Below, one piece after another: positions 7,415 to 27,265 of a stretch of DNA of 57,149 bases. Within the stretch, counting starts at the first letter, position 1, and the number at the start of each line of letters is the position of its first letter. The position numbers and the translations under genes were made by a program. The notes under the pieces were generated by a model that did no database searches, was not told the origin of the DNA, and worked only from the letters and a program-made list of their open reading frames with translations. This stretch comes from Thermodesulfovibrionia bacterium (GTDB taxonomy: Bacteria > Nitrospirota > Thermodesulfovibrionia > UBA6902 > BMS3Bbin08): positions 1 to 57,149 of the forward strand of contig JAUXYI010000063.1 of the NCBI GenBank assembly GCA_030694425.1. The letters run 5' to 3'.

Positions 7415-7419
7415 AGACA

Positions 7420-8652: not shown

Positions 8653-8657
8653 TATGA

Positions 8658-8748: not shown

Positions 8749-8759
8749 GGAGAAGTAAT

Positions 8760-10212: not shown

Positions 10213-11006
10213 CAGTATTTACCCCAGTAGTCACTCATCAATGGATGACAGCGATTACAATGATCCATGGGGAATGCCACATTTAGATGGCATACACCAC
10301 AGAATTTCTTTTGAAGAATTTTTTCCATTGAAAAGTGTTGAGTTTCCTTTTTTTTGACGGTAAAGACATCAGGATGACAATTATTACAGTCAAGCCACTG
10401 AATATGAGGATTGTGAGGAAATATTGCAGGAGGTATGCCAAACATTTCTGCTTCAAGGAGTAGTATTTTATTAAATGTGAAGCCCTCAAGCGGCAGCGGC
10501 ATGATCATCAGATAATGGGCAGGTTTGATCATGTCTTTATCCATCGCTTTTACCCAGTCAATACCATTACCGAATTTTGCTTTAGGAAGCCCTGAAAGTT
10601 CAGAAAACTTTTCTTTTCCGTAAGTTATGTTACCATTATGGCATTTTTCACAGTGAGGCCTGTCGTGGCCAAATACAGTCTTTCCGTCGTGGCAGCCACT
10701 TGCTCCACAATACATGCCTGCCTTGTTTGCAGCCTCTGTTATCTCTGTTGTATTGACTTGGAAATTGAATTCGAGCTCAAAATGGCAGACCCTGCAGGTA
10801 TGTTTCTGCCTGTGAATCCAGTGCGAGAATGTAGCAGGCTTAACATTGTTTTTCTCAGAGGTTCTGTTGATAAGTATGTTCCCAAATTTATAATCAGGAG
10901 GTAAGGGCGGAAGAGTAAAGAATTGCCCCTTGGGTTCCAATGTGAAAATGAGTAGCAGTAATGTGCTTATTGTTACAATCTTTATTGAACGGCTTTTATA
11001 TGACAT
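10212..11006 (-). CDS. Hexaheme c7-type cytochrome with one CX4CH site
   Basis: About 264 residues with an N-terminal signal anchor. Two c7-type triheme units are visible, each beginning with an F(S/P)HxxH stretch. Heme sites are CRVCH, CGASGCH (CX4CH), CEKCH, CNNCH, CGVCH and CNRCH. It is a paralogue of the next gene upstream (10982), where the CX4CH site is a normal CGTCH. The frame can start at TTG 11015 or ATG 11006; both overlap the upstream gene. A periplasmic electron shuttle between inner-membrane oxidoreductases and the outer-membrane conduit is the expected role of such proteins. Confidence 0.85.
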   Translation of the reverse strand: MSYKSRSIKIVTISTLLLLIFTLEPKGQFFTLPPLPPDYKFGNILINRTSEKNNVKPATFSHWIHRQKHTCRVCHFELEFNFQVNTTEITEAANKAGMYCGASGCHDGKTVFGHDRPHCEKCHNGNITYGKEKFSELSGLPKAKFGNGIDWVKAMDKDMIKPAHYLMIMPLPLEGFTFNKILLLEAEMFGIPPAIFPHNPHIQWLDCNNCHPDVFTVKKKETQHFSMEKILQKKFCGVCHLNVAFPMDHCNRCHPLMSDYWGKY

Positions 11007-11824
11007 CTCTGACAATCAAGCATTGGGAATGCCACTGTTCTGTGACATGCACCGCAATATTTGCCTTCAAAATTATTTACACATGTGAATTTTGTAATGC
11101 CTTTTTTAACACCAATAAATATTTCAGGATGACAGACCTCACACCCATTCCAGACCGTATGTTTCTTATGGGAGAATATGATGTTGGGTATCCCTTCAAC
11201 CTTTGCTTCTAAATCAAAATCTTTTGGTGCTTCAAGTTGGAAACTTCTTATAGATACCCCCTCAAGAAAATCAATAGGTTTTATAAGCCCTTCAGCCTCA
11301 GCCTTTTCCCAGTCAATACCATTTCCAAACCTCCCTCTTGGCAGTTTCTCAGTAAATGTATAAAAGTCGTATTCTCTTTTTACATTCTTACCCAGAGAAT
11401 GGCATCTGACACACCTTTTAACATCTTCCTCCTGAAAATTCTTTGAACATGAAGCAAATACCTCCCTGTCGTTATAAACCATCTTCCCATTATGGCATGT
11501 TCCACAATAGTAACCTTTCTTATTGTCAGACGCCCTTATCCCTGTTGCACTTGCCTCCATTGCAAAGGCTATGTCAATGTGGCAGAGTCTGCAGGTAAAC
11601 CGTGCCCTGTGGAGCCAGTGATCGAATACAACAGGCGCTGAGGGTTCTTTTAGATGTACAGGGTACCAAAGTTCTTTGTAATTATCAATTATCACCCTCC
11701 CATATTCATGAGGTAAGGGTCTTTTCTTTTTGACCCCCCCGCCAATCTGAGCTAATGTCAGGCCCGTGAAAGTCAGACCAATAAAAAAAAGAATAAGAAA
11801 CATAATATGTAATAACCTTTTCAT
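10982..11824 (-). CDS. Hexaheme c7-type cytochrome
   Basis: A 280-residue protein with a signal peptide (about residues 1-25, ending LTLAQ). Six CXXCH sites (CRLCH, CGTCH, CVRCH, CEVCH, CGACH, CQRCH) form two triheme c7 units, separated by a linker with FGNGIDWEKA, which is also present in the paralogue at 10212. AGGATGGTG lies before the ATG. It is the first gene of the minus-strand trio 11824-9862, with an AT-rich upstream region (11825-11940) that probably holds the promoter. It is likely a periplasmic electron carrier. Confidence 0.87.
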   Translation of the reverse strand: MKRLLHIMFLILFFIGLTFTGLTLAQIGGGVKKKRPLPHEYGRVIIDNYKELWYPVHLKEPSAPVVFDHWLHRARFTCRLCHIDIAFAMEASATGIRASDNKKGYYCGTCHNGKMVYNDREVFASCSKNFQEEDVKRCVRCHSLGKNVKREYDFYTFTEKLPRGRFGNGIDWEKAEAEGLIKPIDFLEGVSIRSFQLEAPKDFDLEAKVEGIPNIIFSHKKHTVWNGCEVCHPEIFIGVKKGITKFTCVNNFEGKYCGACHRTVAFPMLDCQRCHIKAVQ

Positions 11825-11941: not shown

Positions 11942-11972
11942 TTCATTTCTACACGCTACACCCTATACGCTA
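11942..11972. repeat. CTACACGCTACACCCTATACGC simple-repeat block
   Basis: A degenerate run of CTACACGCTA/CACCCTATACGCT units overlaps the stop codon of the propeller lipoprotein gene. It belongs to the same repeat type as 6226-6401 and 7858-7920. Confidence 0.75.
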
Positions 11973-13034
11973 CTTCTGTTCCTTCAGATACTGAAAGACC
12001 TGCACCCTGTGGTTAAATGTATCAGCAACATAGAGCCTGTCCTGCTTATCTATATACATTCCTGTTGGCAGAAAGAATTCGCCCGGCTTCGTCCCTGCGT
12101 TTCCTACCCATAAAAGGAGGGTTCCATCACTCTCAAAGACCTGAAAGTTATTAAAGGCAGTATCAACCACATATATATGCCCTTCTGAATCAACCCCTAT
12201 ACCATAGGGTCTTGTGAAAGTACCTGAAACATCCCCGAGCCTGCCAAACTTTTTAAGAAACCTTCCTTCCTGATCAAATACCTGAACCCTGAAATTAAGT
12301 GTATCGGCAATAAAAAGCCTACCTTCCCTGTCAAGCGCTAAATAACTGGGAAAATTAAATTCCCCGTCCCCATCACCCCTTTTCCCGATGGTAAAAAGAG
12401 CTTTACCATCCTTGTCAAAAACCCTTATAAGATGGTTCTGGGTATCTGTTACATAGAGTTTGTCCCTGTCTTCATCAAAGACCATACCTGATGGGTTCTG
12501 AAATTCTTTAGCTGCACCTATGCTCATTACTAAATCCCCTGTATTTTTATCAAGACCAAATACCTTATCAATCCTTGAGTCTGCAACAAAGATAATCCCC
12601 CTTTTGTTATCAACAGCAAGCCCAACAGGTCCTGCGAGTATTCCCTCACCAATGAATCTTAATGTATTCTTCTCTATATCAAAAATAACTATAATACTAT
12701 TCTCTGCATCAGCGACATATATATTTCCTGCGGAGTCAGCTACAACAGCAGTTGGCCTCTTCATGGGGTCCGCTACGTCTTCCCCTAAAAAAAAGCTGAG
12801 TAATGGATTTGGAGCTTTGAAATCGTATCGGTTTGACCACTGGGTAATCCATTTAATCCTCGGCTTCTCAGGTAAAGGTGGCCAGATATATTCTCCTGTT
12901 GGTTTTTTATATGTAGGAGCGGCACAACCAGCAATAATCAGCAGCAAGCAGTAAGCAGTAAGCAGTAATATAATTTGAATGTTTACCCCGCTCTTTTGAA
13001 AAAGGGCGGGGTTCATAAATTTGTAAGTTCGCAT
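11970..13034 (-). CDS. Six-bladed beta-propeller (NHL repeat) lipoprotein
   Basis: A 354-residue protein with lipobox LIIAGC (cysteine 37) and about six NHL repeats, for example GDGEFNFPSYLALDREGRLF followed by IADTLNFRVQVF. It is a paralogue of the protein at 6260; both share the KPRI-W start of the mature part and the terminal ADTxNxRVQxFQ block. GAGAGAGG precedes the ATG. The pre-lipobox region contains a translated CCCCGCC...GGCGGGG palindrome (PALFQKSG) and AGCAGTAAGCAGTAAGCAG repeats (LTAYCLLL), so repeats have also entered this leader. It lies between the c7 cytochromes and the prolyl isomerase. Confidence 0.87.
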   Translation of the reverse strand: MRTYKFMNPALFQKSGVNIQIILLLTAYCLLLIIAGCAAPTYKKPTGEYIWPPLPEKPRIKWITQWSNRYDFKAPNPLLSFFLGEDVADPMKRPTAVVADSAGNIYVADAENSIIVIFDIEKNTLRFIGEGILAGPVGLAVDNKRGIIFVADSRIDKVFGLDKNTGDLVMSIGAAKEFQNPSGMVFDEDRDKLYVTDTQNHLIRVFDKDGKALFTIGKRGDGDGEFNFPSYLALDREGRLFIADTLNFRVQVFDQEGRFLKKFGRLGDVSGTFTRPYGIGVDSEGHIYVVDTAFNNFQVFESDGTLLLWVGNAGTKPGEFFLPTGMYIDKQDRLYVADTFNHRVQVFQYLKEQK

Positions 13035-13104
13035 TGCCTCTCTCTTCCTTATCGAGTATAAAGAGCTATATTAATACAAACGAATTAATAAATAACAGAT
13101 GCTG

Positions 13105-13335
13105 AAACGAGTTCAGCATGACAAAATAGAGGTGTCATTCCGAACTTGTTTCGGAATCTCAAAATTTCAATATAAATGCATTTAATGTGGTGGTATTAAT
13201 ACAAACGCAATAAATGTTGTTACATTGTCATTGCGAGCGACCAACGGGAGCGTGGCAATCCCCTTGTAAATACAGAGATTGCTTCGTCGCTTCACTCCTC
13301 GCAATGACACTTTACTTAATGCGTTTGTATTAGTA
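13105..13335. repeat. Noncoding gap with two palindromic elements
   Basis: The 342-base gap between the propeller and surA genes holds GCTGAA...TTCAGC and GTCATTCCGAAC...GTTTCGGAAT palindromes (about 13105-13165) and a composite element at 13194-13335. The composite has inverted ends TAATACAAACGCA / TGCGTTTGTATTA around a REP pair. No gene was found. The surA 3' side is AT-rich. Confidence 0.8.
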
Positions 13336-13376
13336 TATAAAAAACTGAATAAACTTTTCATTAAGATTTTTTAAAA

Positions 13377-14462
13377 TTAAGGACTTACAGGTTGCAGATA
13401 CTCTATCCTTGCCTTCTCCCTCATGGTCTTAAGCCATTCCTCTATTCTTTCCTTCTTTTTCTTTTCCTTTAATTTATTCTTTATTCTATCCCTAACTTCA
13501 TCAAAAGAAAGCTGTTGTCCCTGTTTCCTGTCTTCTATTTTAATTATATAAAAGCCCTGTTCTATCTCTAAAGGACCCATTACTTCCCCAATCTTCGCAC
13601 CAAAGGCAAGAGCCTCTATTTCTGGCATCATCCTTCCCTTGTGAACATACCCAAGCTCTCCCCCTTTAACCCTATAAGGGTCATCAGAATATTCATAAGC
13701 GAGGGCTGCAAAATCTTCGCCTTTTTTAATTCTTTCCAACAGCCCCTCCGCCATTGCCTTTGCCTCTTCCTTATTCCTTGTTTTCTTGACCTTTGTTCCC
13801 TGTCCCTCTTTTTCAAATTCCCCCTTGCCCTCATTTAATCCCCCTGCATCCCCCTTTGTCAAAGGGGGGAAGGGGGAATTTTTCTCAAACCTGACCATTA
13901 TGTGCCGTAGTTTGACTTGCTCTAATTCCTTATACTTTTGAATGTTATTTTCATAATATGCCTTTATCTCCTCATCTGATACCACTATCTTATCTTCCAC
14001 TTCCCTCTTAAAGAGTTTCTCTATTATAATGTCCTTTTCTATATTAGCCTCTAAATCTTCTATTGTAAGTTTACTACGTTTGAGGGCCTCTTTAAATTCC
14101 TTATTAGAAGGAAATCTTTTTTTAATATCCTCAATCTTATCCTTTATTTCTTTCTTTTCCGCCTTTATCCCCTGTGCCTTTGACTCCTGAAACTGGAGTT
14201 CTCTATCTATAAGCCTTTCCATTGCCTCCTTCCTATAGCCTGCCCTTTTCTCAGGAGAGACATTCCTGTGGAATAAGGTTCGGGGAATAATCCTGTCTAT
14301 CTCCTCCTCAACCTGATTCAGTGTTATGGGGATACTATTTACTTTAACAACAACTACGGAAGGGTTTTCAGATAGGGATACCATTGGTAATAATAAATAA
14401 CCTATAAAAAAGGAAAAACTAAGGAGGACTACAACGAAATGTTGTCTATGTTTAATCGCCAT
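13377..14462 (-). CDS. SurA-like periplasmic peptidyl-prolyl cis-trans isomerase
   Basis: About 361 residues. A signal anchor is followed by a helical SurA N-terminal region (NSIPITLNQVEEEIDRI, then AMERLIDRELQF) and a parvulin (PpiC) domain (LRHIMVRF ... GGELGYVHKGRMMPEIEALA ... GFYIIKIEDR). The open frame reaches 14612, but those codons are a REP, so I start at ATG 14462. A 65-base palindromic element (13816-13880) is translated in frame in a loop of the parvulin domain. Prolyl isomerases accompany several cytochrome-filament and conduit loci, so the substrate may be a cytochrome or the barrel; this is inference. Confidence 0.85.
   Translation of the reverse strand: MAIKHRQHFVVVLLSFSFFIGYLLLPMVSLSENPSVVVVKVNSIPITLNQVEEEIDRIIPRTLFHRNVSPEKRAGYRKEAMERLIDRELQFQESKAQGIKAEKKEIKDKIEDIKKRFPSNKEFKEALKRSKLTIEDLEANIEKDIIIEKLFKREVEDKIVVSDEEIKAYYENNIQKYKELEQVKLRHIMVRFEKNSPFPPLTKGDAGGLNEGKGEFEKEGQGTKVKKTRNKEEAKAMAEGLLERIKKGEDFAALAYEYSDDPYRVKGGELGYVHKGRMMPEIEALAFGAKIGEVMGPLEIEQGFYIIKIEDRKQGQQLSFDEVRDRIKNKLKEKKKKERIEEWLKTMREKARIEYLQPVSP
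13816..13880. repeat. Palindromic element inside the surA coding sequence
   Basis: Inverted ends AATTCCCCCTT / AAGGGGGAATT (11 bp, perfect) with an inner CCCCCTTTGTCAAAGGGGG stem. It is read through in frame as a Gly/Pro/Lys-rich stretch in the parvulin domain. Confidence 0.85.
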
Positions 14463-14472
14463 TTTTATTTTT

Positions 14473-14568
14473 GTCATTCCGCACTTGATGCGGAATCCAG
14501 AGTCTTTCGGTTCTGGTTTGCCGTTTTCACGGGGACGATACCTGGATTCCCGCCTTCGCGGGAATGAC
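14473..14568. repeat. REP pair upstream of surA
   Basis: Arms GTCATTCCGCACTTGATGCGG and CCCGCCTTCGCGGGAATGAC flank a middle arm CCGTTTTCACGG. The pair lies between the polyferredoxin stop and the surA start and creates a false N-terminal extension of surA. Confidence 0.85.
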
Positions 14569-14587
14569 AACATTGTGCCTTCATTAA

Positions 14588-15856
14588 TCAACCATTTTCC
14601 TTCTTCACACACTTTTCTTCAAACGGGGTTTCCCCTGAAAAACCATGCTTAATACTGATTGAACTCTGCACACAAAAGTCTGAACAAAGACCGCATCCAT
14701 TACAAAAGGAGGCATTAAAAAGCATACCCCCCTTTAATTCCCCCCTTACTAAGGGGGGATTGAGGGGGGTATGCTCTTTATTTATACTTTCATGCTCATC
14801 ATCACTAACATGTGGCTCTTTTAATGCTCCTGTGGGACACATCCCTATACAGGCAAAACACATGTCACAATTATCGTCAACAACAAGGTCAAAATAATAG
14901 TTTGCAAGTATTTTATTTGAAAGCCCCTTTTCTTTGTCATTGCGAGCCGCCTTCTCTTTGTCATTCCGAGCGAAGCGAGGAATCTCGCTCTGAGATTGCT
15001 TCGGCTCACTTTGTGAACCTCGCAATGACAGGTGAGGGCTAACGCTCCTCGCAATGACGCTTTCCTTATCCTTTGTATTGTTCTCTATCATAACAGAAAG
15101 AACCCTATTTAGCAGTTTCCTTTTAAATGGTAAAACCTTATCGCCATATGCTGACATCTGCTTCTGGTCTACTGCACTATCAAGGAAGCTCGCAGCCCCC
15201 TTCATCGTAAGCTTCTTTAATGCACTAAAAAAGCCTCTGCGGTCATAAGGAATCGCCTGATATTGCAAGTCAGATTTATCTTCAATAAGCATTATTTTCC
15301 CCCTCACCCTTCCCCTCTCCCCATTGGGGAGAGGGATGGGGTGAGGGGAGATCTTTGTCTCAACCAACTCCAATCTCTTTTTCAACACATCAACGATAAA
15401 ACTATTTTTGCATGATTTGCATTCAGTCAGATTAAGCTGTAACGGGGCTTGAACAAAAATTAGAAGGGCTATTAAGTGTTCTTCGGACAAAAAACCCATA
15501 CAAAAGGTATTTATGTGCGCCTTTATATCCTCTTGCATGTTACAAGCTAAGACAGGGGGCAACCCCCCTTCGGTTCCCCCCGAGCTCTTTCTTAACTTGG
15601 AGATTATAGAATAAAAATTAAATGAATTAATCTCAAGTCCCCCGGAAGGACATTCTGCCACACATAACATGCACTGCGTGCAGGTCTCTTTATTAATATC
15701 TAATCCCCCCTCTATCTTGATGGCGCTCGTAGGGCAGCAATCTATGCATTTACTGCACCTGTTTTTATTAAATCGCATTCGTAAACACCGGGAGTCATAA
15801 ATTCCGATGAGGTCAGTGTTAGTGGAAAGTTTGTCGATTATCTTGGTTCGTAACAT
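14588..15856 (-). CDS. Cytoplasmic 4x[4Fe-4S] polyferredoxin carrying three in-frame palindromic insertions
   Basis: A 422-residue protein without signal peptide. An N-terminal pair of clusters (CSKCIDCCP, CTQCMLCVAECP) and a C-terminal pair (CDMCFACIGMCP, CNGCGLCSDFC) are separated by a long cysteine-poor middle. Such proteins often sit beside TorD-type chaperones of molybdoenzymes and may serve in maturation or electron supply; a TorD gene lies about 580 bases upstream. Three stretches are translated palindromic repeats: SPHPIPLPNGERGRVRG, a REP-derived RSVSPHL...RFARND stretch, and TPLNPPLVRGELKGG. They lie between conserved parts, so the gene may still be functional. Confidence 0.8.
   Translation of the reverse strand: MLRTKIIDKLSTNTDLIGIYDSRCLRMRFNKNRCSKCIDCCPTSAIKIEGGLDINKETCTQCMLCVAECPSGGLEINSFNFYSIISKLRKSSGGTEGGLPPVLACNMQEDIKAHINTFCMGFLSEEHLIALLIFVQAPLQLNLTECKSCKNSFIVDVLKKRLELVETKISPHPIPLPNGERGRVRGKIMLIEDKSDLQYQAIPYDRRGFFSALKKLTMKGAASFLDSAVDQKQMSAYGDKVLPFKRKLLNRVLSVMIENNTKDKESVIARSVSPHLSLRGSQSEPKQSQSEIPRFARNDKEKAARNDKEKGLSNKILANYYFDLVVDDNCDMCFACIGMCPTGALKEPHVSDDEHESINKEHTPLNPPLVRGELKGGMLFNASFCNGCGLCSDFCVQSSISIKHGFSGETPFEEKCVKKENG
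14721..14775. repeat. Palindromic element inside the polyferredoxin gene (1 of 3)
   Basis: Perfect inverted ends AGCATACCCCCC / GGGGGGTATGCT with an inner CCCCCCTTA-CTAAGGGGGG stem, 55 bases. It is translated between the third and fourth cluster motifs. Confidence 0.85.
14936..15057. repeat. REP pair inside the polyferredoxin gene (2 of 3)
   Basis: Several arms of the GTCATTGCGAG / GGAATGAC / CTCGCAATGAC family, read in frame through about 40 codons in the middle region. Confidence 0.85.
15296..15347. repeat. Palindromic element inside the polyferredoxin gene (3 of 3)
   Basis: CCCCTCACCC...CTCTCCCC / GGGGAGAGG...GGGTGAGGGG palindrome, read in frame as SPHPIPLPNGERGRVRG. Confidence 0.85.
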
Positions 15857-16438: not shown

Positions 16439-17101
16439 TTACGCCATCCCCTTTTCCCCACGCTTAATCATCATGTATTCCATATCAGACTTAATAAATG
16501 TCAATGTGCAATCAGCAAGATTTTTATAAAATGGGTTCTTAGCACCCTCCCTTAAATCCTTTGCAAACTTAGGCATCCATACACCGATGTGTCTTCTCAG
16601 GAAATCCTCCTGCATATTATGATAATTTAAGAACCCTTCATTATCCGAATTCTGATATGCCTCAAGACCTTTATTTATCAGGTAATACATAAATTCAAGC
16701 TCTACTGATATATGGTCGGGCATATCCTTTTGCGCAGGGTCCATCTCAACCCCTGCCTTTCTATAATATTTTACCGCATCAATGGTTGTATCTCCCATTA
16801 CCGTTCTCTTGCCTTCAAGATAGACCGAGCCGTATGGAGGAGCTAAAAGCCCAAAAGGACCTATAAAGAGCGCTGAATAATCAACAAGGATTTCAGTGTT
16901 TGTATATTTTGAAAGGGCATTATCCATATCCTTGGCAAAAGGGACAGCATTATTACATATAGGCTCTAAGGCGGTAATAAGGTTTTTGACCAATCCTTCT
17001 TCAATAAATTCCTTTCCAGGCTTACAATAACAGGCTGAAAGCAGTCTGTAGCAGTCTGCCCTGTGAGTCTCCTTTTGAATAAATTCCTCTGTTAGCTGCA
17101 T
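16439..17101 (-). CDS. TorD/NarJ-family molybdoenzyme chaperone (ArrD/TorD-like)
   Basis: A 220-residue cytoplasmic all-helical protein. It carries the family block PDHISVELEFMYYL (about residues 127-140) and the early R-x-D-CYRLLSACY helix. TorD proteins bind the Tat signal of a molybdopterin enzyme and help load the cofactor before export. The Tat-bearing ArrA-like protein encoded upstream (18464) is the obvious client. AGGAGGC precedes the ATG. The 426-base gap to the upstream FeS gene contains a terminator, so it may have its own promoter. Confidence 0.88.
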   Translation of the reverse strand: MQLTEEFIQKETHRADCYRLLSACYCKPGKEFIEEGLVKNLITALEPICNNAVPFAKDMDNALSKYTNTEILVDYSALFIGPFGLLAPPYGSVYLEGKRTVMGDTTIDAVKYYRKAGVEMDPAQKDMPDHISVELEFMYYLINKGLEAYQNSDNEGFLNYHNMQEDFLRRHIGVWMPKFAKDLREGAKNPFYKNLADCTLTFIKSDMEYMMIKRGEKGMA

Positions 17102-17162: not shown

Positions 17163-17251
17163 CGAACCCTTTTAATATAATACTTTTCCCTCTAAAACTG
17201 CAAACCTTATTTCAACGTTCCGAAAATAGAGATAGAAAAACCAAAGCCGTG

Positions 17252-17410
17252 TCATACCTGTCATTGCGAGAACCCGAAGGGTTCGTGGCAATCCGACCTG
17301 AAAGGTCGTTACGAGGGCGAAGCCCGTGGTAATCTCAAACTGAGATTCCTCGCTTCACTCGGAATGACACCTCGTGTCAGATTGCTTCGCTTTGCTCGCA
17401 ATGACAATTT
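17252..17410. repeat. REP cluster in the FeS-TorD gap
   Basis: Five or more arms of the GTCATTGCGAG...GGAATGAC...GCTCGCAATGACA family, including AACCCGAAGGGTT and ACCTGAAAGGT stems. The gap 17102-17527 contains no gene. Confidence 0.85.
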
Positions 17411-17455
17411 TCTATCTCTATTTTTCGGTCAATGTAGCCGCAACTTTTTCTGGGC

Positions 17456-17488
17456 AAAAAAAAGGGCAAGGCAAATGCCTTGCCCTTT
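17456..17488 (-). terminator. Intrinsic terminator after the ArrB-like gene
   Basis: AAAGGGCAAGGCA (17461-17473) is perfectly complementary to TGCCTTGCCCTTT (17476-17488). On the minus strand the stem is followed by a run of T (the A run at 17456-17463). It lies 40 bases after the FeS stop codon and would end the 22278-17528 transcript. Confidence 0.85.
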
Positions 17489-17527: not shown

Positions 17528-18379
17528 TTATCTGAAGCTGAAATTGCCCACATAGTAGACATTGGGTCTGCTTGACCCTGAGGTAGGTGGAGTTATAAGA
17601 ACTACTTTCCTCAAGTTAGTGTATTTCTTAGATGCCAGAACCTTTGCGCCTGCTGGGACACTTGTTACGATTTCCCTTACTCCTGCAGGACAAGCAAGGA
17701 CACAATAGGGCTTTCTCTCTGGCTCGGCTAAAGTCATATCATTGAGCCTGTGGACACAGAGGTGGCACTTATCCACAATACCTTTTCTGCTCACATCATT
17801 TTGGGTAACACCGCATACATCAACATATGTCCAGTCATTCTTGTACGCAGGTGCAAGCTCTGTCATTCCCACGGTGTTCCTTACCTCAGCCTCTGAGCTT
17901 GTGCAGCCTGCAATAGCCTCTGAATTGTCGGTGAGATACCCGAAGGGTTCTACCGAATGGTAACTTATTACACTGTAATTTGCCTTTGATGCCCCGGCAT
18001 TTGCAGTGCTATAAGGACATTGCCTCTGGCATGCACGGCAGCCGATGCACCTGGCATTATCGTGAAGCACGAGTCCGCCGTTTGCTGCTGTGAGCTTGTA
18101 CATAGCCTTTCTCTTACCCCCTACACAGTTAACATCGTCGATAGGGGCTACAGGGCATGCAGCAACACATGCAGGGTCATCACAGTGATTGCATAGAACA
18201 GGCAGGGCTATCCATTTTGTACTCGGGAAAAGCCCGGTTGTTTCTGTAATGAAATCTGCCCTGTTAAAGGTCTGCCCGCCAAGCCTCTCAGGGGTGTTAT
18301 TCCCGATTTTACAGGCTATGGCGCATGAACCACAACCTACACATTTTGATAAATCAATCTTCATCATATTTTGAGACAT
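17528..18379 (-). CDS. ArrB/DmsB-like 4x[4Fe-4S] electron-transfer subunit
   Basis: A 283-residue protein with no signal peptide, so it is expected to be exported together with its Tat-bearing catalytic partner. The cluster motifs are CVGCGSCAIAC, CNHCDDPACVAACP, CIGCRACQRQCP and CHLC...CVLACP. The start (KIDLSKCVGCG, CNHCDDPAC) and the end (PNVYYVGNF) resemble ArrB of respiratory arsenate reductases. About 60 extra residues (145-200) lie between clusters three and four. GAAAGGAGAT precedes the ATG. It should link the molybdoenzyme to the tetraheme cytochrome of the same operon, since no NrfD partner is encoded nearby. Confidence 0.88.
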   Translation of the reverse strand: MSQNMMKIDLSKCVGCGSCAIACKIGNNTPERLGGQTFNRADFITETTGLFPSTKWIALPVLCNHCDDPACVAACPVAPIDDVNCVGGKRKAMYKLTAANGGLVLHDNARCIGCRACQRQCPYSTANAGASKANYSVISYHSVEPFGYLTDNSEAIAGCTSSEAEVRNTVGMTELAPAYKNDWTYVDVCGVTQNDVSRKGIVDKCHLCVHRLNDMTLAEPERKPYCVLACPAGVREIVTSVPAGAKVLASKKYTNLRKVVLITPPTSGSSRPNVYYVGNFSFR

Positions 18380-18463
18380 TTTTTATCTCCTTTCTTCTTT
18401 TAATTTTCATTTCCTGTATCCCCGTCCTTTTTACGGGAAGGGGATACAGGGTAAACTATTTTC

Positions 18464-21400
18464 TTACACCACCTTCACTATTTTCACCTTAATACAGGCG
18501 TTTCTTGCAGTTGAGCCGCTCATACGCTCCCACTCTGCCGGCAGTATCTCATTGTTGTTACCGCCGTTAGGTGTTGTGCCGAATACCTTAGAAGCATACC
18601 TTCCATATGCCCAGTGTCCTTGACCATAGGATTTTGCTACGGTGCCTGACCTTACGCCAGCCCATACCGCTACCTTACAGATTATGCCTTCTGTTTGGTT
18701 TGCAGGACTGGTGATTCTGACTGAGTCACCGTCTTTAACACCCAGAGCAGAGGCATCCGTAGGGTTAATCTTTACAACATCTTTCCACTTTGCATCGCCC
18801 GCGTCGCATGACTTGAATTCATGGTACCATGGGGCATTCGCGCTCCTTCCTTCTCTGTTGAGACGCGACTTATGGTCAATGAAGGTGTACTTGTAAGTGC
18901 CGGGCGCGCCGCCGTCATTGATGTTCGGGTCTTCATAGTGCGGCATAATGGCGATATCTTTGTCCACGTCAGTGACGCCGACCAGAGCAGCCGTGTCATC
19001 ATAGTTTGTTGCAACAAGAATCTCATACCAGGTAGTTGCCTCAGGTGTGGTAGCAGCTGAAATAATAGCATCAAAGCCGTATTTTATCGCTCCATTTGCG
19101 TTATAGAACTCCGGCTTTGCGCTAAATGTTGCAAAGCAGTCCTTGGCGATGTCATATGTATCGCTGGCGGCAGGAGCAGCAGAAAATGCCTTGGCAACAG
19201 TTAATGTGGTGGCAGTATTACTTAGTATATAACGCGCCTCACCTACTGCTGCGCCGCTTGTCATAATAACCCACGCTTTCGCCCATGCATTGGCGGTCCA
19301 AGCCTTTGAGGTGTCTGTTAGGGTAGTTGTAGTGCCTCCAGTAGCCGTGCCGTTGTCATTTCTGGTTGAGCCGTCCACTGCATATCTCCATGCCTTGCCG
19401 CGACCACTCACAAATTGACTGCTGCTATATGTAGCCTGTGAGATACCGTTTCCTGCATAAAGGGTGGTAGAGCCGGGCACTAACCCATAAGCACCATTAA
19501 GCGCATCCCATTCCTGCGCCCTTGTGCTGCCGCTCCACATGCCGCCTTTTGTGGCATGGTATTTTGTCTGTACCAGCTCAAAGTCCTTTGAATCCGCGGC
19601 AGCCGATAAGGTAGGCTCGCCCATAGCAGCAGGATATGTGGTTCTAAGATAGTTGATAAGATAGCTCCAGCCCGCTGTGTCCAAGCCCTGTCCCAGAATC
19701 CATGGGACTTCGCTCTCCGCGTTCTTTGCATCCGGGAATACAGGATCAATAACCGCATTATAGAGACTATGTGTCTTATACTTGCCTGAGCGCTGATGCG
19801 TGCTTGCCATTACCTCAAGCCCTACATGTTTTCCCGGAAGGATTATGTCGGCAAACATTCCCATCTCTGAGGCGTGGGTGGAAATATCCACAACAAATGG
19901 AGGGGCAGTGTCATCGGCAGAAGCAGACCATGCGCTCATGTCACCGGTGTTATATGCATTTCCGGTGGTTAATGCGTCTTCCCATCTTGATGCGCCTGCG
20001 CATGAGAATGGCCAGTTGCTCATGGCGGATAGTATGAATTTGGTCTCATAAGGAGACTTATCCCTTATGGCATCCGCTGTCCTGTTTGTCGGGGTTATGG
20101 CGCCGACCTTGTATGCCCCGCTGGTGTATTCCAATGCCGGCATGGTAAGTTCGTAACCGCTGGCTACATACTTTGTGATTTTCTGCATGCTGCCCTTGCG
20201 GTTACCGTCATCATAAGCAGATGTTGACGGTACGCCGTCGGTATAGTAACTATTGGACGGCTCTGCCTGTATCTCGCCGCCCAGGTGGTCAAATGAGCCG
20301 ACAAGCGCATTTAGCATTATGCAAGCCCATGCTCCGTACATGCTGTTTGGCGACATTGCGACGCCGGGACCAAGCCATGAAATAGCCTTTGCCTTGTCAT
20401 CGTCGTCGGTTCCGCCTGCGAAGCCCTCTGCTACTGCTTTTATTGTAGCTGAGCTTATTCCTGTAATGCCTGCCGCCCACGAGGGAGTGCAGTTTTTAAC
20501 TACTTTATTCCACCATGCTACAACGCCTTTTGTGCCTTTTTCCGGAACAGCGCCTACTACAGCATCAAGGCCTGCTGTAAATACGGTATCATCAAGGCCT
20601 GCGAATGTCTTGTTCCATAAGCCGCTTACCAGAATATGATGGGCTATTGCAAGTGCTAATGCGCCGTCTGTTCCCGGTTTTACCGGCAGCCATTTGTGAG
20701 CCTTTGCAGCAGTTGCATGGAGACGGGGGTCTATTGAGACAACCGTCATGCCTGCATTCATCCGCTCACCAAGCTTTTTGATAGTGCCTGAGCACAATCT
20801 GTTAGAAGATACTGGGTCAACACCCCATAGCAGGAGATAACGGCAGTTGTCAATGTCGTAATCATCATAACCCCAACGGCCCACGGCAAGCGACCTTGCG
20901 AAGTTCTCAGCCTCAGCGCATATTGAGCTGTGGCTTATGGCATTCGGGGTGCCGATAATTTCTTTCACTGCGTTATACAGTGTCGTCCTGCCATAAGTAT
21001 ATCTTCCTCTGAAATAGGCATACTTATGCGCATTGCCGGCGTCTCTCATAGCAATCAGCTTGTTGGCAATCTCTGCCATTGCATCGTCCCATGATACAGG
21101 GATGAAATGAGGGTCCACACCCCTGCCTTTTGCGTTGTTTGTCCTTCTCATAGGGACCTTTACCCTGTCAGCATCATAAGCCTCCTGTAAGGCTATCCGT
21201 GCCTTAGGGCATACAATGTTAAAATCTCCGTTTGTTGCGTCTCCTCTCTTTGAGTTCCTATTTCCTCTTACATCAATAGCCCTCTTAATGCCCGCTTCGG
21301 TCTGTGTTTTAACCTCTACAGGACACCATGTTGTGCAGCCAGCGCAAGTGGTCGGAGTATAGCCAATTGTTCCTGACTCCTCTGCGTGGGCTTTTGATGG

Positions 21401-21493
21401 TCTGAGGGTATTGAGTACTGTGCCGCTTAAGGCTCCTGCTACTCCAACGGCAACAGAGCCTTTTAAGAAATCTCTACGAGTTACTTTTATCAT
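18464..21493 (-). CDS. Tat-exported ArrA/ArxA-like molybdopterin oxidoreductase with an inserted module
   Basis: A 1009-residue protein, longer than usual ArrA (about 850). Tat signal TRRDFLKG (residues 5-12); [4Fe-4S] cysteines 50, 53, 57 and 95; then YDADRVKVPMRRTN, RGRYT (162-166) and SHSSICAEAENF with Cys192 as the expected Mo ligand; then WGVDPVSSNR. These blocks are typical of the ArrA/ArxA clade of the DMSO reductase family. Compared with ArrA as I remember it, CAEAEKF has become CAEAENF (197) and GYW has become GRW (206), so substrate contacts may differ. Residues about 711-784 (GTATGGTTTTLTDTSKAW ... TATTLTVA) look like a separate surface beta module. The substrate is undetermined. 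Confidence 0.85.
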   Translation of the reverse strand: MIKVTRRDFLKGSVAVGVAGALSGTVLNTLRPSKAHAEESGTIGYTPTTCAGCTTWCPVEVKTQTEAGIKRAIDVRGNRNSKRGDATNGDFNIVCPKARIALQEAYDADRVKVPMRRTNNAKGRGVDPHFIPVSWDDAMAEIANKLIAMRDAGNAHKYAYFRGRYTYGRTTLYNAVKEIIGTPNAISHSSICAEAENFARSLAVGRWGYDDYDIDNCRYLLLWGVDPVSSNRLCSGTIKKLGERMNAGMTVVSIDPRLHATAAKAHKWLPVKPGTDGALALAIAHHILVSGLWNKTFAGLDDTVFTAGLDAVVGAVPEKGTKGVVAWWNKVVKNCTPSWAAGITGISSATIKAVAEGFAGGTDDDDKAKAISWLGPGVAMSPNSMYGAWACIMLNALVGSFDHLGGEIQAEPSNSYYTDGVPSTSAYDDGNRKGSMQKITKYVASGYELTMPALEYTSGAYKVGAITPTNRTADAIRDKSPYETKFILSAMSNWPFSCAGASRWEDALTTGNAYNTGDMSAWSASADDTAPPFVVDISTHASEMGMFADIILPGKHVGLEVMASTHQRSGKYKTHSLYNAVIDPVFPDAKNAESEVPWILGQGLDTAGWSYLINYLRTTYPAAMGEPTLSAAADSKDFELVQTKYHATKGGMWSGSTRAQEWDALNGAYGLVPGSTTLYAGNGISQATYSSSQFVSGRGKAWRYAVDGSTRNDNGTATGGTTTTLTDTSKAWTANAWAKAWVIMTSGAAVGEARYILSNTATTLTVAKAFSAAPAASDTYDIAKDCFATFSAKPEFYNANGAIKYGFDAIISAATTPEATTWYEILVATNYDDTAALVGVTDVDKDIAIMPHYEDPNINDGGAPGTYKYTFIDHKSRLNREGRSANAPWYHEFKSCDAGDAKWKDVVKINPTDASALGVKDGDSVRITSPANQTEGIICKVAVWAGVRSGTVAKSYGQGHWAYGRYASKVFGTTPNGGNNNEILPAEWERMSGSTARNACIKVKIVKVV

Positions 21494-21516
21494 ATTTTTA
21501 TCCCTCCTTTCTTAAA

Positions 21517-22278
21517 TTATCTATTGACATGACAGTCTATGCACATTCCGGAGCCTGAATTGTCACCCCTGAGAAAGTACACCTGTGTTCCTGCTGACCT
21601 ACCAACGTCCATCGACTTTCCAGGATAGTCAACGGTATCATGGACCGCATGGCATGTAGCACATTCAAACTGGTTGTAATCTCCGGTATTACCTGTTTCA
21701 CTATAAAGCGGATATGGTCCTCTTGCTCCGATAATAGCCCTTTTATTTACATTGCTGGTGCTATAAGCTTGAGCCGCTCTGAATCCGTTATTCTCATCAT
21801 CACGGGCTGGGTTATAAGTAAAACCCACAGGATGCTCATTCAGCATGGTCGCCGCGTCCGACCCGAGATTGGTCTGAGGATTTACAAGTAATGTGGAATT
21901 AAAATTATAATCAGTATTTGCCACAGACCCTGGTCCTGGATAGTTAACAAGGGTGCTTGCTACACCATTATGACAGACCATACAATTGAAAGTTGCATAA
22001 TTGGCAGAGTCTATTAAGGTAGTTTCTGTCATATCAAAGGTTGGACTGGCATACATTGTATAGCTCGTAGGAGCACCTTGAGCCCTGTTCCATAAAGGAT
22101 ATTGTCCTGAGCCTGCGTGAGGCGTGTGACACATTGCACATCTTTCAATATCTGCGCCTGCTCCTAAATCACGCATAACAGCCACATCATGAGGAGTGCC
22201 TTCAATAATAGCCCATGCACTCATAGCAGTACCTATTATCAGCACCGCCACCGTCATTATACTTAATAGTTTCTTCAT
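21517..22278 (-). CDS. OmcE-like tetraheme c-type cytochrome encoded with the ArrAB-like enzyme
   Basis: A 253-residue protein with a signal peptide (residues 1-23, cut after AWA). Four CXXCH sites appear as ERCAMCHTPHAG, then PLWNR and SYTMYASP, NCMVCHNG, a NEHPVGF block, FECATCHAVHD, and MCIDCH near the C-terminus. This is the same block order as the 7805 protein and OmcE-like filament cytochromes. AAGGAGG precedes the ATG. It is the first gene of the operon, 23 bases upstream of the molybdoenzyme, so it is probably the enzyme's direct electron partner. Whether it polymerises is not visible from sequence. Confidence 0.72.
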   Translation of the reverse strand: MKKLLSIMTVAVLIIGTAMSAWAIIEGTPHDVAVMRDLGAGADIERCAMCHTPHAGSGQYPLWNRAQGAPTSYTMYASPTFDMTETTLIDSANYATFNCMVCHNGVASTLVNYPGPGSVANTDYNFNSTLLVNPQTNLGSDAATMLNEHPVGFTYNPARDDENNGFRAAQAYSTSNVNKRAIIGARGPYPLYSETGNTGDYNQFECATCHAVHDTVDYPGKSMDVGRSAGTQVYFLRGDNSGSGMCIDCHVNR

Positions 22279-22597
22279 ATTCTATACCTCCTTCTTTTCA
22301 TTTTTTAGACCTCCTCTTTTAATGTAAGACAGTGCTAAATTTGTCCTCATACTCTTCACTCACCACCCCCTTCATGAATAAGCCTGTTCAATTAAAAGAC
22401 TCCACCTTCGCCGTCTTTCCCCGAAAATGTCATGACGATTCCCCCTGAAAGAGGGAATACAGACTCCTTTCTTTTTTAAAGTTTTAGGTTTAGAGACAGT
22501 TAGAAACCTAACTGTTTAGTAAGTTAAGCAAAACGTATGCCAGTAGTAAATATTACGGAAAACCCTTTTAAAAAACGAAAAAAATGAACACAGGGTA

Positions 22598-23512: not shown

Positions 23513-23530
23513 TTGAGGAGGATTTTCAAG

Positions 23531-24247
23531 ATGAAAAGGGTTCTTATAGTTGATGACGAGAAATTGATACTTGATGGATTGTCAAAGTCTCTCTCCAATG
23601 AATATACCGAGATAACAACCATAGAAACAGGTAAAGATGCACTTAAGGAAATTACCTCACGTTTCTATAACCTTTGCATTTTAGATATCTATCTGTCTGA
23701 CATCAACGGACTGGATGTTATGAAGAAGATAAGGGAAATATCCCCTGAAACTAAGGTCGTTATCATGACAGCTTACCATATAACTAATGAAATGACGCAG
23801 GAGATAGAAGATAACGCCCATTACTTTATTAGCAAACCTTTTGACCTCTCTCAGATAAAAGTGATTTCGGAGACAGTATTGGCGCCAGGAGTCCAGGAAG
23901 GTCTTCAAAGAGACTGCAAATCTTCTGACGCAGGATTATCGGAGATTCGTTTTCGGAACGAATCTCCGACCGGAAACGATGGAAGAAGGTTTAAGAGAAC
24001 GCCGTTTACGAAAACCATTAATTACTTTGCGAGCGTCATGGAAGAAAAAGAGTTGAAGATATCAAACTTAAGGGGTGATATTGTTGATATCAGCGATGAG
24101 GGAATCGGCATAAGGACAGATTATCCCCTTAAGATAGGCTATATGGTGAGGTTTCCTGAAGAAACAAAACATGATATAGGAGTTGTCAAGTGGAGCATGT
24201 CTACAGGAGGTGGTTACAGGGTAGGAATTGAGTTTATAAAACGTTAA
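23531..24247 (+). CDS. Response regulator with C-terminal PilZ (c-di-GMP) domain
   Basis: About 238 residues. The receiver domain has an acidic DDE cluster near the start, the phospho-acceptor Asp in LCILDIYL, Thr in VIMTAYH, and Lys in ISKPFD. A PilZ domain follows with RRFKR (R-x3-R) and DISDEG (D-x-S-x-x-G), both c-di-GMP contacts in this family. The linker carries a translated GGAGATTCG/CGAATCTCC palindrome. GAGGAGG stands 8 bases before ATG 23531, which decides the start over the longer frame. It may couple phosphorelay to motility, surface or export behaviour. It lies tail to tail with the NtrC gene. Confidence 0.87.
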   Translation: MKRVLIVDDEKLILDGLSKSLSNEYTEITTIETGKDALKEITSRFYNLCILDIYLSDINGLDVMKKIREISPETKVVIMTAYHITNEMTQEIEDNAHYFISKPFDLSQIKVISETVLAPGVQEGLQRDCKSSDAGLSEIRFRNESPTGNDGRRFKRTPFTKTINYFASVMEEKELKISNLRGDIVDISDEGIGIRTDYPLKIGYMVRFPEETKHDIGVVKWSMSTGGGYRVGIEFIKR

Positions 24248-24250: not shown

Positions 24251-25627
24251 TCATTCCAATCCGAATTTCTTTATCTGGTACCTTAGCGAATCGTAACTTA
24301 TATTAAGCAGTTTTGCAGCGAGGGTTTTATTATGTTCTGCCTTTTGAAGCGCCTGTATGATAAGGTCCTTTTCTAATTCTTCAAGGGATATTCCATCATC
24401 TGGAAGGATACATCTATATTTTGTAAGACAGCTCGCCCTTGCAGCTTCTAAAGGTAATTGTTCAGGCATTATCAATTCAGTGTTTTCAAGCACCACAATC
24501 CTCTCTATGACATTCTTCAATTCCCTCACATTACCGGGCCAGGAATAGGAAAGGAAGATTTTTTCTGCCTCAGGGGAAAAGCCTTTTGGATTGCTCTTTT
24601 TGTATTCAGTTGTAAAGTATCTGAGGAAATGCCTTGCAAGCGGAAGGATGTCCTCCTTTCTTTCCCTGAGCGGCAGTATATGGAGGGAAAATGTATTCAA
24701 CCTGTAAAACAGGTCCATCCTGAATTCCCCCTTTTCCACCGCTAAGCTGAGGTCTTTATTTGTAGTGACTATAACAGTGACATCTATGGGGAGCTCATTT
24801 TTACCTCCAATGCGTCTTATCGTCCTTTCCTCCAGCACCCTCAGGAATTTGCTCTGCAACCCTGTTTTCATGTCCCCTATCTCATCAAGGAGTATTGAGC
24901 CTCCGTCAGCAAGCTCAAAAAGACCTTTTTTATCAGACTTTGCGTCTGTGAATGCACCTTTTTCATAACCAAAAAGCTCACTTTCAAGAAGGGTCTCAGG
25001 CAGGGCAGTGCAATTAACCGGAATAAAAGGCGCGCACCTCAGGGTGCTATCACTATGTATCAAGGAATGGACACATCTTGCGAGAAGTTCCTTGCCGGTC
25101 CCGCTCTCCCCTGTAATGAGAACCATTGAAACACCTGCCTTTGCCATCTTATCAAGCTTTTCTTTTAACTCTTTTATTGCCTTTGACTCTCCAATGATGT
25201 CCTTATTAAAGGTCTCTGCAAATACCTTTCTCAGGTACTCAACCTCGTGCTTGAGTTTCCCCTTTTCTATGAGATTATTTATAACAATTTTTACCTTCTC
25301 TATATCAAGTGGTTTGGTTAGATAATCAGTGGCGCCGAATTTCATGGCCTTAACAGCGGTCTCAGCAGTGTCATCCGCTGTAAGCATTATGACCTCTGTG
25401 TCTATCCCTTGGGCTTTAATCTCCTGAAGTATATCAAGCCCGCTTTTTTCAGGGATATTTATATCAAGCAGTACTACATCAGGAGACCAGGAACTAATCT
25501 TATCAACCGCATCCTGTGCGCTGCCCTCGACGATTACTTCATAGCCCTCTTTTCTGAGCGCCCTTGAGAGCATTGATACAATAAGTTCTTCGTCATCCAA
25601 AAGAAATAGCTTACCCTTTTTTTTCAT
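24251..25627 (-). CDS. NtrC-family sigma-54 response regulator (GAFTDA variant)
   Basis: About 458 residues: receiver domain (DDEE, then VVLLDINIP with the phospho-Asp), an AAA+ domain with Walker A GESGTGKE and Walker B GGSILLDEIGDM, and a Fis-type helix-turn-helix at the C-terminus (LAAKLLNISYDSLRYQI). The sigma-54 contact loop reads GAFTDA rather than the usual GAFTGA. The partner is the heme-sensor kinase at 25805, encoded just upstream with a repeat element between. ATG 25627 follows an AAAGGTAA signal. Target promoters are unknown; a sigma-54 promoter occurs at 33988 and another at 52517. Confidence 0.92.
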   Translation of the reverse strand: MKKKGKLFLLDDEELIVSMLSRALRKEGYEVIVEGSAQDAVDKISSWSPDVVLLDINIPEKSGLDILQEIKAQGIDTEVIMLTADDTAETAVKAMKFGATDYLTKPLDIEKVKIVINNLIEKGKLKHEVEYLRKVFAETFNKDIIGESKAIKELKEKLDKMAKAGVSMVLITGESGTGKELLARCVHSLIHSDSTLRCAPFIPVNCTALPETLLESELFGYEKGAFTDAKSDKKGLFELADGGSILLDEIGDMKTGLQSKFLRVLEERTIRRIGGKNELPIDVTVIVTTNKDLSLAVEKGEFRMDLFYRLNTFSLHILPLRERKEDILPLARHFLRYFTTEYKKSNPKGFSPEAEKIFLSYSWPGNVRELKNVIERIVVLENTELIMPEQLPLEAARASCLTKYRCILPDDGISLEELEKDLIIQALQKAEHNKTLAAKLLNISYDSLRYQIKKFGLE

Positions 25628-25642
25628 GAAATTACCTTTATA

Positions 25643-25750
25643 ACACACCCCCAACCCCTCTTAATAGAGGGGAGTTCTATTGTTTCCCCTCTAAAAAGAG
25701 GGGATTAATGGAAGCACTTCTTTATTGAAGTGCTCCATTAAGGGGTGTGT
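25643..25750. mobile_element. Small non-autonomous palindromic element, copy 1
   Basis: Ends ACACACCCC / GGGGTGTGT (inverted). Inside are CCCCTCTTAATAGAGGGG, CCCCTCTAAAAAGAGGGG and GGAGCACTTC/GAAGTGC stems. About 60 bases from CCCCTCT to GGGGTGTGT are nearly identical to 34335-34404. There is no coding capacity. It sits between kinase and regulator genes. Confidence 0.75.
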
Positions 25751-25804: not shown

Positions 25805-27265
25805 TTAGTTTATTTTCTCTGGATTCCCGCTTTCGCGGGAATGACTTAATAAAGTAACCGGAAGAACAATCCTGAACGCTGTTCCCTCGCCCAGGGTGCT
25901 TTTCACGTTTATGTTACCTCCATGTTCCTCTACAATTCTTTTAGTAATAGCCAGGCCCATTCCAGTGCCTTTGGGCTTGGTTGTAAAAAATGGTTGAAAG
26001 ATTTGATCCATCATTTCTTTGCGAATTCCTTTGCCTGTATCAGCTATCTCTACCTGGATTGAATTTTTTGCCAAATCGTGGGAGGTTTTTATAGCTAATG
26101 TTCCACCGTTAGGCATTGCATCAACCGCATTAAGCAGTAAATTGAGGAATATCTGCTGTAGTTGCATCTGGTCAGCCATTATCATCGGAAGATTATTATC
26201 AAAGTCTCTCAAAACTTTAATCGCCTTTGAGTCATCAGGCGAAAGGTGCGGAATACTGATTGAAAATGTCAGGGAAATATCAATGATGTTATTTATATTT
26301 GTGGGTGTGAATTGCGGTTTAGGTGGTCGGGCAAAATTGAGAAGCTCCTTTAACAGTAATTCTATTCGTCTCACCTCCTTAATGGCCTTTAATAAAACAT
26401 CCCTATTTTCTTCTGAGATGCTGGAGTCCTCGCGCAAAACCTCCATTGAGACCTTAATGCCTGCAAGGGGATTTTTGATTTCATGGGCAAGCCCTGTTGC
26501 CAGCTCCCCGCACACACGCAGTTGTTCAGTCCGCTGCATATTAAGCATCTGCTCCTTTAATGAATCTGCCATTTCATTAAAAGATTTAGCCACCTCTCCA
26601 AACTCATCTTTCAGCCTTTCAATCCTGTAATCTAAATCACCACTTTTTAATCTCCGTGTTGCATTCAGGAGTATATTAAAAGGACCTGTAAATGACTTTA
26701 TAAAAACAAGACTTAAAACCGTTACCAAGAGAGGCCCGCTGGTTAATATTACAAAAAGCATGATTTTTGTATCTTCTATCTTTCCCATGGCTAATTTCGT
26801 CTTCTCAGTAAGACTACTGCTTGTCATTGTTATCATTTCATTAAGTTCTTTAATCAGGGAGTGTCCTATTGCAATGGCATCCTCTTTATAGAATCCTTTG
26901 ACATTCCCCTTTGCAGATGAAACTCTTCTCACTGTTTCTTCGTATTCCTGAAAACGATTTTTTAAATTAGAGAGCCTGTTCTTTATATTCTGGGTGTGAT
27001 GACAGTCAAAACATTTCTCAATTTCTCCCCCCAGGTTATTTGTATCCGTTAAGATGAGGACATAGTTTCCTTTCCCGGACTCAAGGTCAGACTGAGTCCT
27101 TACAACATTTATAAGCAGATGCTCTCTCAGTATTTCAACCTGATGGAGCTTTATAAGATTACTAAGTTCGGACGTAGTTGTTTCAATGATGACAATTATA
27201 TACAGGGTCAGGACGAAAAAAATCAAGGAAAAGACGGTTAGACCTATAAGTATCTTTTTCTTCAT
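25805..27265 (-). CDS. Histidine kinase with a periplasmic c-type heme motif
   Basis: A 486-residue protein. TM1 (about 5-27) and TM2 (about 168-192) enclose a periplasmic helical sensor with CFDCHH (Cys85, Cys88, His89), a c-type heme site. HAMP, a dimerisation/phospho-acceptor helix (GLAHEIKNPLAG) and an HATPase domain (NAVDAMPNGG, DTGKGI, GTGMGL) follow. Heme-containing sensors of this layout respond to redox state or small gases such as NO. The C-terminal tail (LLSHSRESGNPEKIN) is a translated REP. It precedes the NtrC gene, so the pair probably tunes a sigma-54 promoter to periplasmic redox state. Confidence 0.9.
   Translation of the reverse strand: MKKKILIGLTVFSLIFFVLTLYIIVIIETTTSELSNLIKLHQVEILREHLLINVVRTQSDLESGKGNYVLILTDTNNLGGEIEKCFDCHHTQNIKNRLSNLKNRFQEYEETVRRVSSAKGNVKGFYKEDAIAIGHSLIKELNEMITMTSSSLTEKTKLAMGKIEDTKIMLFVILTSGPLLVTVLSLVFIKSFTGPFNILLNATRRLKSGDLDYRIERLKDEFGEVAKSFNEMADSLKEQMLNMQRTEQLRVCGELATGLAHEIKNPLAGIKVSMEVLREDSSISEENRDVLLKAIKEVRRIELLLKELLNFARPPKPQFTPTNINNIIDISLTFSISIPHLSPDDSKAIKVLRDFDNNLPMIMADQMQLQQIFLNLLLNAVDAMPNGGTLAIKTSHDLAKNSIQVEIADTGKGIRKEMMDQIFQPFFTTKPKGTGMGLAITKRIVEEHGGNINVKSTLGEGTAFRIVLPVTLLSHSRESGNPEKIN

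Follow-up and report, generated by a model that had tools for sequence, protein, structure and literature searches.

How does an exported molybdoenzyme exchange electrons when its operon encodes a multiheme cytochrome and no quinol subunit? The question is raised by a three-gene operon in a Thermodesulfovibrionia bacterium (phylum Nitrospirota; assembly GCA_030694425.1, contig JAUXYI010000063.1, positions 1 to 57,149, all 57,149 nucleotides of which are here called the window). A preliminary description of this DNA had read the operon as a tetraheme cytochrome, a molybdoenzyme with a twin-arginine translocation (Tat) signal, a four-cluster iron-sulfur (FeS) protein and a terminator, an order that the open reading frames (ORFs) and a hairpin confirm (Table 1; the cytochrome is named OmcE1 here). 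We consider it somewhat better than an even bet that the operon specifies an exported redox enzyme with its own dedicated OmcE-family electron partner, linked without quinones to an outer-membrane conduit, probably oxidising a donor, and located at or outside the outer membrane.

The arrangement recurs in related bacteria. Among 47 genomes of the order, seven from three families carry the enzyme (the source genome, G009, G012, G013, G022, G034 and G040), with 53-92% enzyme identity among the seven loci. In every one an OmcE-type gene lies immediately upstream on the same strand, at a gap of 19-30 bp (23 bp in the window), and genes for the FeS subunit and a TorD-type chaperone follow the enzyme wherever the contig extends far enough. 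A gene order common to all seven loci, in three families and at such identities, is not due to chance. No NrfD, CymA, NapC or other quinol-linked membrane gene stands beside the operon in any of the seven, so that the linkage of cytochrome, enzyme and FeS protein expected from the preliminary description holds beyond the window, and homologous operons with an NrfD or CymA gene next to the enzyme, which would have spoken against it, number zero. A sigma-54-like motif lies 214-360 bp upstream of the cytochrome gene in 7/7 orthologous operons. OmcE1 is likely a dedicated partner of the enzyme.

The likeness of this cytochrome to OmcE had been proposed from the order of its motif blocks. CHTPH, PLWN, HPVG and CATCHAVH are all present in OmcE1, and the similarity is statistical too: phmmer matched it to OmcE (7TFS, E 4.5e-17) and to a related solved chain (9YUQ, E 1.2e-18), and a profile of OmcE1 and its relatives matched 7TFS over its full length (E 7.2e-41), in an alignment that covers the four CXXCH motifs, the four distal His and a C-terminal FLR block. 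The only matches of 21517-22278 were OmcE relatives, with none in the cytochrome c3 family. An AlphaFold2 model computed from 74 sequences (predicted local distance difference test 76.9, predicted template-modelling score 0.76) had 7TFS as its sole significant match in the Protein Data Bank (E 1.1e-6, TM-score 0.69 by target length, root-mean-square deviation 4.6). One heme of OmcE has a ligand His that belongs to the adjacent subunit (PMC9473688; PMC12307469). The Cys and His of OmcE1 number exactly eight each, none of which varies in the 74-sequence alignment; the ligand set has no spare, and hence the His that bridges subunits in OmcE, whichever it is, is present in OmcE1. Homology, ligands and predicted fold together support OmcE1 as a full-length relative of OmcE. 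It shares with the Geobacter sulfurreducens protein four hemes, eight ligand His, the FLR and CHTPH/PLWN/HPV/CHxxH blocks and the predicted fold, but belongs to a separate subclade, whose genes lie directly upstream of exported oxidoreductases. We considered a wire, a short oligomer and a shuttle as forms of OmcE1; short filaments are possible.

It is this subclade that gives the pairing its wider meaning. We gathered OmcE1 relatives by profile from 150 and 396 genomes, read the downstream genes for about 80 of them and built a cytochrome tree of 82 rows. OmcE1 falls in one 20-member clade (support 100/98), with an inner clade of 16 (99/96) in which seven genes precede the ArrAB-like enzyme, three a hydrogenase and two a formate dehydrogenase, three stand alone and one more completes the set. 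The hydrogenases are Tat-exported [NiFe] enzymes directly downstream of the cytochrome gene in three genomes (L201, L202, L218); the formate dehydrogenases, likewise directly downstream in two genomes (L204, L219), contain selenocysteine, their catalytic subunit being read through an in-frame TGA at a CARLUH motif, the classic site (checked by eye in L204, with the same split ORF in L219). Beside these hydrogenases and formate dehydrogenases we saw neither a quinone-linked cytochrome b nor an NrfD subunit, the L219 sequence ending right after the enzyme. In one genome (G180; L204/L223) a single strand reads OmcE1-FdhB-FdhA-FdhE-9heme-NHL-barrel-NHL-OmcE2-7heme, so that the OmcE1-formate dehydrogenase genes lead directly into a porin/OmcE2/7-heme conduit. 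We rejected the explanation that any OmcE gene tends to adjoin an enzyme: about 55 other OmcE-type genes examined have no oxidoreductase next to them and are followed instead by 7-heme cytochrome, NHL, PPIase (prolyl isomerase) or barrel genes, and the four basal members of the 20-member clade sit among beta-barrel, PPIase and NHL genes. One cytochrome subfamily therefore stands beside three unrelated exported oxidoreductases, a pattern that suggests enzymes plugged directly into extracellular cytochrome circuits.

The OmcE1-linked hydrogenases have a peculiarity of their own. In their large subunits, and in a relative in G215, the N-terminal metal-binding motif is interrupted by in-frame TGA codons (Table 1), in the forms RICGV-U-PTGH and RICGV-U-PTAH or, doubled, RI-U-AV-U-PTAH and RI-U-AV-U-PTGH; in none of the other hydrogenases of the phylum where this motif was found is there an in-frame TGA. 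Selenocysteine at the N-terminal end of a hydrogenase active site, possibly two, would be unusual.

The molybdoenzyme itself is not a typical ArrA. Within the DMSO-reductase superfamily its closest relatives are Arr/Arx enzymes, and it has the FeS-binding Cys set; its best structure match is Shewanella ArrA (6CZ7, E 1.9e-153) and its best curated model is ArrA, at 618 bits and below the cut-off of 1600. The seven family members compared with it also fell below that cut-off, six other members of the family scoring 1024-1307 and one orthologue of the window enzyme 683. In trees, the six complete orthologues group together on a long branch (support 99), apart from the group of 6CZ7, Sulfurospirillum and Bacillaceae and also from that of Nitrospirota paralogues, Geobacteraceae and Proteobacteria. 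By these sequence comparisons it is a third deep branch of the Arr/Arx family. 'ArrAB-like', the term in the preliminary description, is a fair one, with the restriction that arsenate reduction is not to be assumed, as the branch is separate and deep. The branch shares with ArrAB/ArxAB a Mo subunit with a four-cluster FeS subunit, Tat export, a TorD chaperone and the Mo-ligand Cys (Cys192) with its surroundings, including the positions equivalent to ArrA R165, Y166, H189, S190 and Y210. It differs in standing at 40-44% identity, in its scores (618-683 bits versus 1024-1307) and in a lost Arg, inserts, a shifted composition and the OmcE-type neighbour. The Arg, at ArrA position 381, is kept by 95/95 other family members and by none of the six orthologues, which have Asn or Ala instead. 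Position 198 is Lys in ArrA and Asn in 5/6 orthologues; Asn also occurs there in nine ordinary members, making it a weak signature, and loss of Arg 381 is the cleaner one. One insert, absent from ordinary ArrA, is mobile and about 68 residues long (GTATGGTTTTLTDTSKAW...): the module recurs outside the window (L304, L305, L306, L043), in 15- and 23-heme giant cytochromes of relatives and, at a different place, in the G013 orthologue. The source genome also has an ordinary ArrA paralogue, on contig C3, with a NapC-type 11-heme cytochrome, ArrB and TorD.

Could the operon nonetheless encode a divergent but ordinary quinol-linked arsenate reductase, fed by a NapC/CymA-type dehydrogenase elsewhere, with the OmcE-type gene a helper or passenger? 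The preliminary description was right that the operon has no membrane anchor and that NrfD genes occur elsewhere in the window (248-1672 and 49441-50643); it overlooked a CymA-type NapC/NirT 11-heme gene (45951-47321) that could play this part. Genes of this type adjoin ArrA paralogues in 6/11 related loci, membership of the ArrA family would suit such an enzyme, and many ordinary ArrAB operons have no adjacent quinol subunit. The last point also led us to drop the missing subunit, whose weight had been overstated, as a special trait. The NapC-type gene is, however, absent from five of the seven genomes with the system, one of them rated 100% complete, and we judged it unlikely as a hidden quinol partner. 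The conserved neighbour is the OmcE-type cytochrome, not NapC, the neighbouring sensors are not of the ArrX type, and both Arg 381 (6/6) and, with Asn in 5/6, the ArrA residue at position 198 have been replaced. We regard a quinol-linked arsenate reductase as very improbable. Near the NapC-type gene, the window (45951-56498) holds this 11-heme cytochrome together with an NrfD module and a phosphonate-type binding protein/kinase/NtrC set, without an ArrA gene; the set resembles sensors beside ArrA paralogues, and in L047, L050 and L053 the same sensors and the 11-heme gene directly precede ArrA.

In the mechanism that we favour, the ArrAB-like enzyme would fold in the cytoplasm with its TorD chaperone and be exported by Tat together with the FeS subunit, which has no signal of its own and is presumed to be co-exported. 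The Mo centre, the FeS clusters and the hemes of OmcE1 would then exchange electrons, which OmcE1 would relay through the conduit encoded nearby (beta-barrel, OmcE2 and 7-heme proteins; 4398-9839) to the outside, bypassing the quinone pool. OmcE1 would act as an exchangeable plug, its sister cytochromes serving hydrogenase and formate dehydrogenase in related bacteria. Because these two normally oxidise donors, the ArrAB-like enzyme most likely does so too, perhaps feeding electrons from arsenite or a sulfur species, as a small donor, to the cytochrome. Run in the opposite direction, the same wiring would make the enzyme a terminal reductase of an external oxyanion (arsenate, polythionate or iodate-like), a proposal that does not exclude the first and that we hold at roughly one chance in three. 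In its favour, among the Arr enzymes that have been characterised most act as reductases (PMC10100899), control by NtrC together with a heme-type sensor suits acceptor respiration, and there is the precedent of Shewanella DmsEFAB, in which DmsAB stands behind DmsEF. As the sister partners normally oxidise donors, we lean modestly towards donor oxidation over reduction of an external oxyanion.

DmsEFAB is also a close parallel in wiring: its molybdoenzyme and FeS subunit are exported, a multiheme cytochrome is encoded with them and a quinol subunit is not, and DmsAB works outside the cell, where type II secretion carries it (PMC9048795). It differs in that DmsE is an MtrA-type decaheme protein in a beta-barrel and DMSO reductase belongs to another branch of the Mo family; an MtrA-type decaheme and barrel are not in our operon, the barrel and multihemes lying about 10 kb away on the other strand. 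The second parallel is FdhABC3 of Desulfovibrio, whose operon combines exported catalytic and FeS subunits with a tetraheme cytochrome and lacks a membrane subunit; this tetraheme, cytochrome c3, is compact, periplasmic and not related to OmcE. The OmcE1-linked formate dehydrogenase operons (L204, L219) can be seen as a related layout in which a different cytochrome is used. Porin-cytochrome conduits of Nitrospirota with NHL, PPIase and OmcE-type genes provide a third: such a set is present in the window (4398-9839 and 11970-14612), and enzyme-less OmcE1 relatives occur in others (L203, L205, L220, L221), which differ from the operon in having no catalytic enzyme beside their OmcE-type gene.

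Where would enzyme and cytochrome work? By themselves, Tat and Sec signals take a protein no further than the periplasm, and a soluble periplasmic pair, with OmcE1 a monomeric shuttle to the conduit or to other periplasmic cytochromes and neither filament nor extracellular enzyme, would account for these signals, for the conduit genes next door and for the layout shared with FdhABC3-type systems of sulfate reducers. Composition points elsewhere. The ArrA-like partnered enzymes have 9.4-10.1% Lys+Glu, compared with 14.8% (sd 1.4) in other members from the named and phylum loci; Ser+Thr+Gly+Ala+Asn make up 39-44% of the former and 33% (maximum 37) of the latter. We rejected the insert as the sole cause: the shift persists in an insert-free core of 825 columns, without overlap with 95 other Arr/Arx proteins. 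It extends to the FeS subunit and the cytochrome and is not seen in the same genome's ArrA paralogue (15.6% Lys+Glu). Low-charge, cheap composition is a known trend of secreted proteins. Likewise, in the large subunits of OmcE1-linked hydrogenases Lys+Glu amount to 5-7%, compared with 10-16% in unrelated ones and 12-14% in other hydrogenases of G193 and G180; for formate dehydrogenases the figures are 8-9% when OmcE1-linked and 10-15.5% otherwise. That three unrelated enzyme families are shifted alike suggests a shared environment. Taken with the module common to giant cytochromes and with genes for GspD and a type II secretion-like system (GspD secretins score above the cut-off in the source genome), the composition gives indications, not proof, of an extracellular location. 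The composition and the shared module, together with full-length OmcE homology in which every ligand is kept, the inter-subunit one among them, tell against the periplasmic pair, to which we give about one chance in four.

The further step would be that Nitrospirota make enzyme-tipped or enzyme-decorated nanowires, in which an OmcE subfamily is a universal extracellular socket for unrelated secreted oxidoreductases (Arr/Arx-like, [NiFe]-hydrogenase and selenocysteine formate dehydrogenase) that turn over donors or acceptors outside the cell, on the wire and without quinones. We advance this only tentatively, and as to the more modest arrangement preferred above, enzyme and cytochrome would probably be at or outside the outer membrane, with OmcE1 possibly as short filaments. 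Several points weigh against the arrangement. Filament, activity and location are predictions from genes, the genes compared come from metagenome-assembled genomes, and the Arr/Arx tree placement involves long branches. The FeS and Mo chemistry fits either electron direction, OmcE-type proteins could be soluble periplasmic monomers and the composition shift may reflect a property other than location. Lastly, three subclade members (L206-L208) stand alone, and hence an enzyme partner is not universal. As to the earlier proposal of an exported enzyme that exchanges electrons with a cytochrome wire, the conserved OmcE-family partner with its fold, ligands and sister pairings upholds the operon partnership. 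Linkage, family assignments, ligand conservation, the conduit genes nearby and the composition shift can be read directly from the sequences; the electron partnership, its direction and location, polymerisation, exit from the periplasm and the substrate are what we infer here.

The surroundings of the operon are listed in Table 1. Its end at a terminator needs qualification: the hairpin is there, with same-strand TorD-type chaperone, polyferredoxin and PPIase genes beyond it that are conserved together with the operon. The type II secretion system (T2SS)/pilus-like set adjoins this operon's regulators in G034 (L039/L318).

Table 1. Coordinates of the operon, its neighbours and other features (window positions unless a locus is named).
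Feature	Position	Strand	Remarks
OmcE1, OmcE-type tetraheme cytochrome, first operon gene	21517-22278	-	253 aa, Sec signal peptide, 4 CXXCH
Tat-exported molybdoenzyme, ArrA/ArxA family	18464-21493	-	1009 aa, RRDFLK Tat signal, Molybdopterin and Molydop_binding domains
Inserted module, enzyme residues ~715-782	19148-19351	-	absent from ordinary ArrA
ArrB-like FeS subunit	17528-18379	-	283 aa, four 4Fe-4S cluster motifs, best model ArrB
Terminator-like hairpin with T run	17468-17486	-	3' of FeS gene
Sigma-54-type promoter motif TGGCATACGTTTTGC	22528-22542	-	249 bp upstream of OmcE1 ATG
TorD/DmsD-type chaperone for molybdoenzyme	16439-17101	-	3' of hairpin, same strand as operon
Polyferredoxin-type protein	14588-15856	-	also behind ArrABD in other genomes
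SurA/PpiC-type prolyl isomerase (PPIase)	13377-14612	-	recurs in OmcE/porin clusters of the class
NHL beta-propeller protein	11970-13034	-	recurs in the same OmcE/porin clusters
Response-regulator protein, divergent from operon	23513-24247	+	conserved
NtrC-family (sigma-54 activator) response regulator	24251-25654	-	conserved beside operon
Histidine kinase, one CXXCH in sensor part	25805-27265	-	conserved beside operon
Candidate outer-membrane beta-barrel of porin-cytochrome conduit	4398-6110	+	inferred from sequence pattern, no Pfam family; relative in L220, 24% identity, E 2e-17
NHL beta-propeller protein of conduit operon	6260-7414	+	
Second OmcE-type tetraheme cytochrome, OmcE2 type	7805-8605	+	paired with 7-heme gene
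7-heme cytochrome of conduit operon	8760-9839	+	
Type II secretion/type IV pilus-like cluster	34498-41714	-	secretin, T2SSF, T2SSE (ATPase), three pseudopilins, cytochrome genes
NapC/NirT-domain (CymA-type) 11-heme cytochrome, outside operon	45951-47321	-	PF03264 E 1.1e-11
Hydrogenase TGA sites	L201 near 3100-3330; L202 near 7035-7200; L218 near 10880-11053; L302 near 229-429		

Three further observations concern this neighbourhood. At 34498-44324 the T2SS/pilus-like genes are interspersed with multiheme cytochrome genes (36344-37159, 42843-43658). An ORF for a 23S rRNA intervening-sequence protein (PF05635) occurs between cytochrome-cluster genes at varying places (window 7434-7808, L041 4159-4533, L043 6402-6758), and a palindromic repeat-like stretch (GTCATTGCGAG...), probably a short mobile repeat, lies between the FeS and TorD genes (window 17220-17420).

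That no system of this kind had been described was too strong a statement: DmsEFAB and FdhABC3 are partial precedents, in which exported enzymes that bring no quinol subunit are already wired to multiheme cytochromes, and the claim to novelty is trimmed for this reason. In the literature searched, we found no description of an OmcE-family cytochrome as a dedicated, exchangeable partner of such enzymes. The earlier interpretation, partly supported here, is worth more than it claimed, as the pairing is conserved and part of a wider pattern. Cytochrome nanowires are usually pictured as connecting the respiratory chain, cable-like, with minerals or with partner cells; what they do for the cell is a matter of dispute. 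If our reading is true, a nanowire-family cytochrome tied to three unrelated enzymes would gain a defined biochemical job and illustrate how chemistry might feed straight into extracellular circuits; soluble assays could then test what OmcE-type proteins do, and bioelectronics would be offered natural enzyme-to-wire interfaces. The finding also hints that groundwater Nitrospirota have a metabolism of hydrogen, of formate and possibly of arsenic or sulfur that is as yet undescribed.

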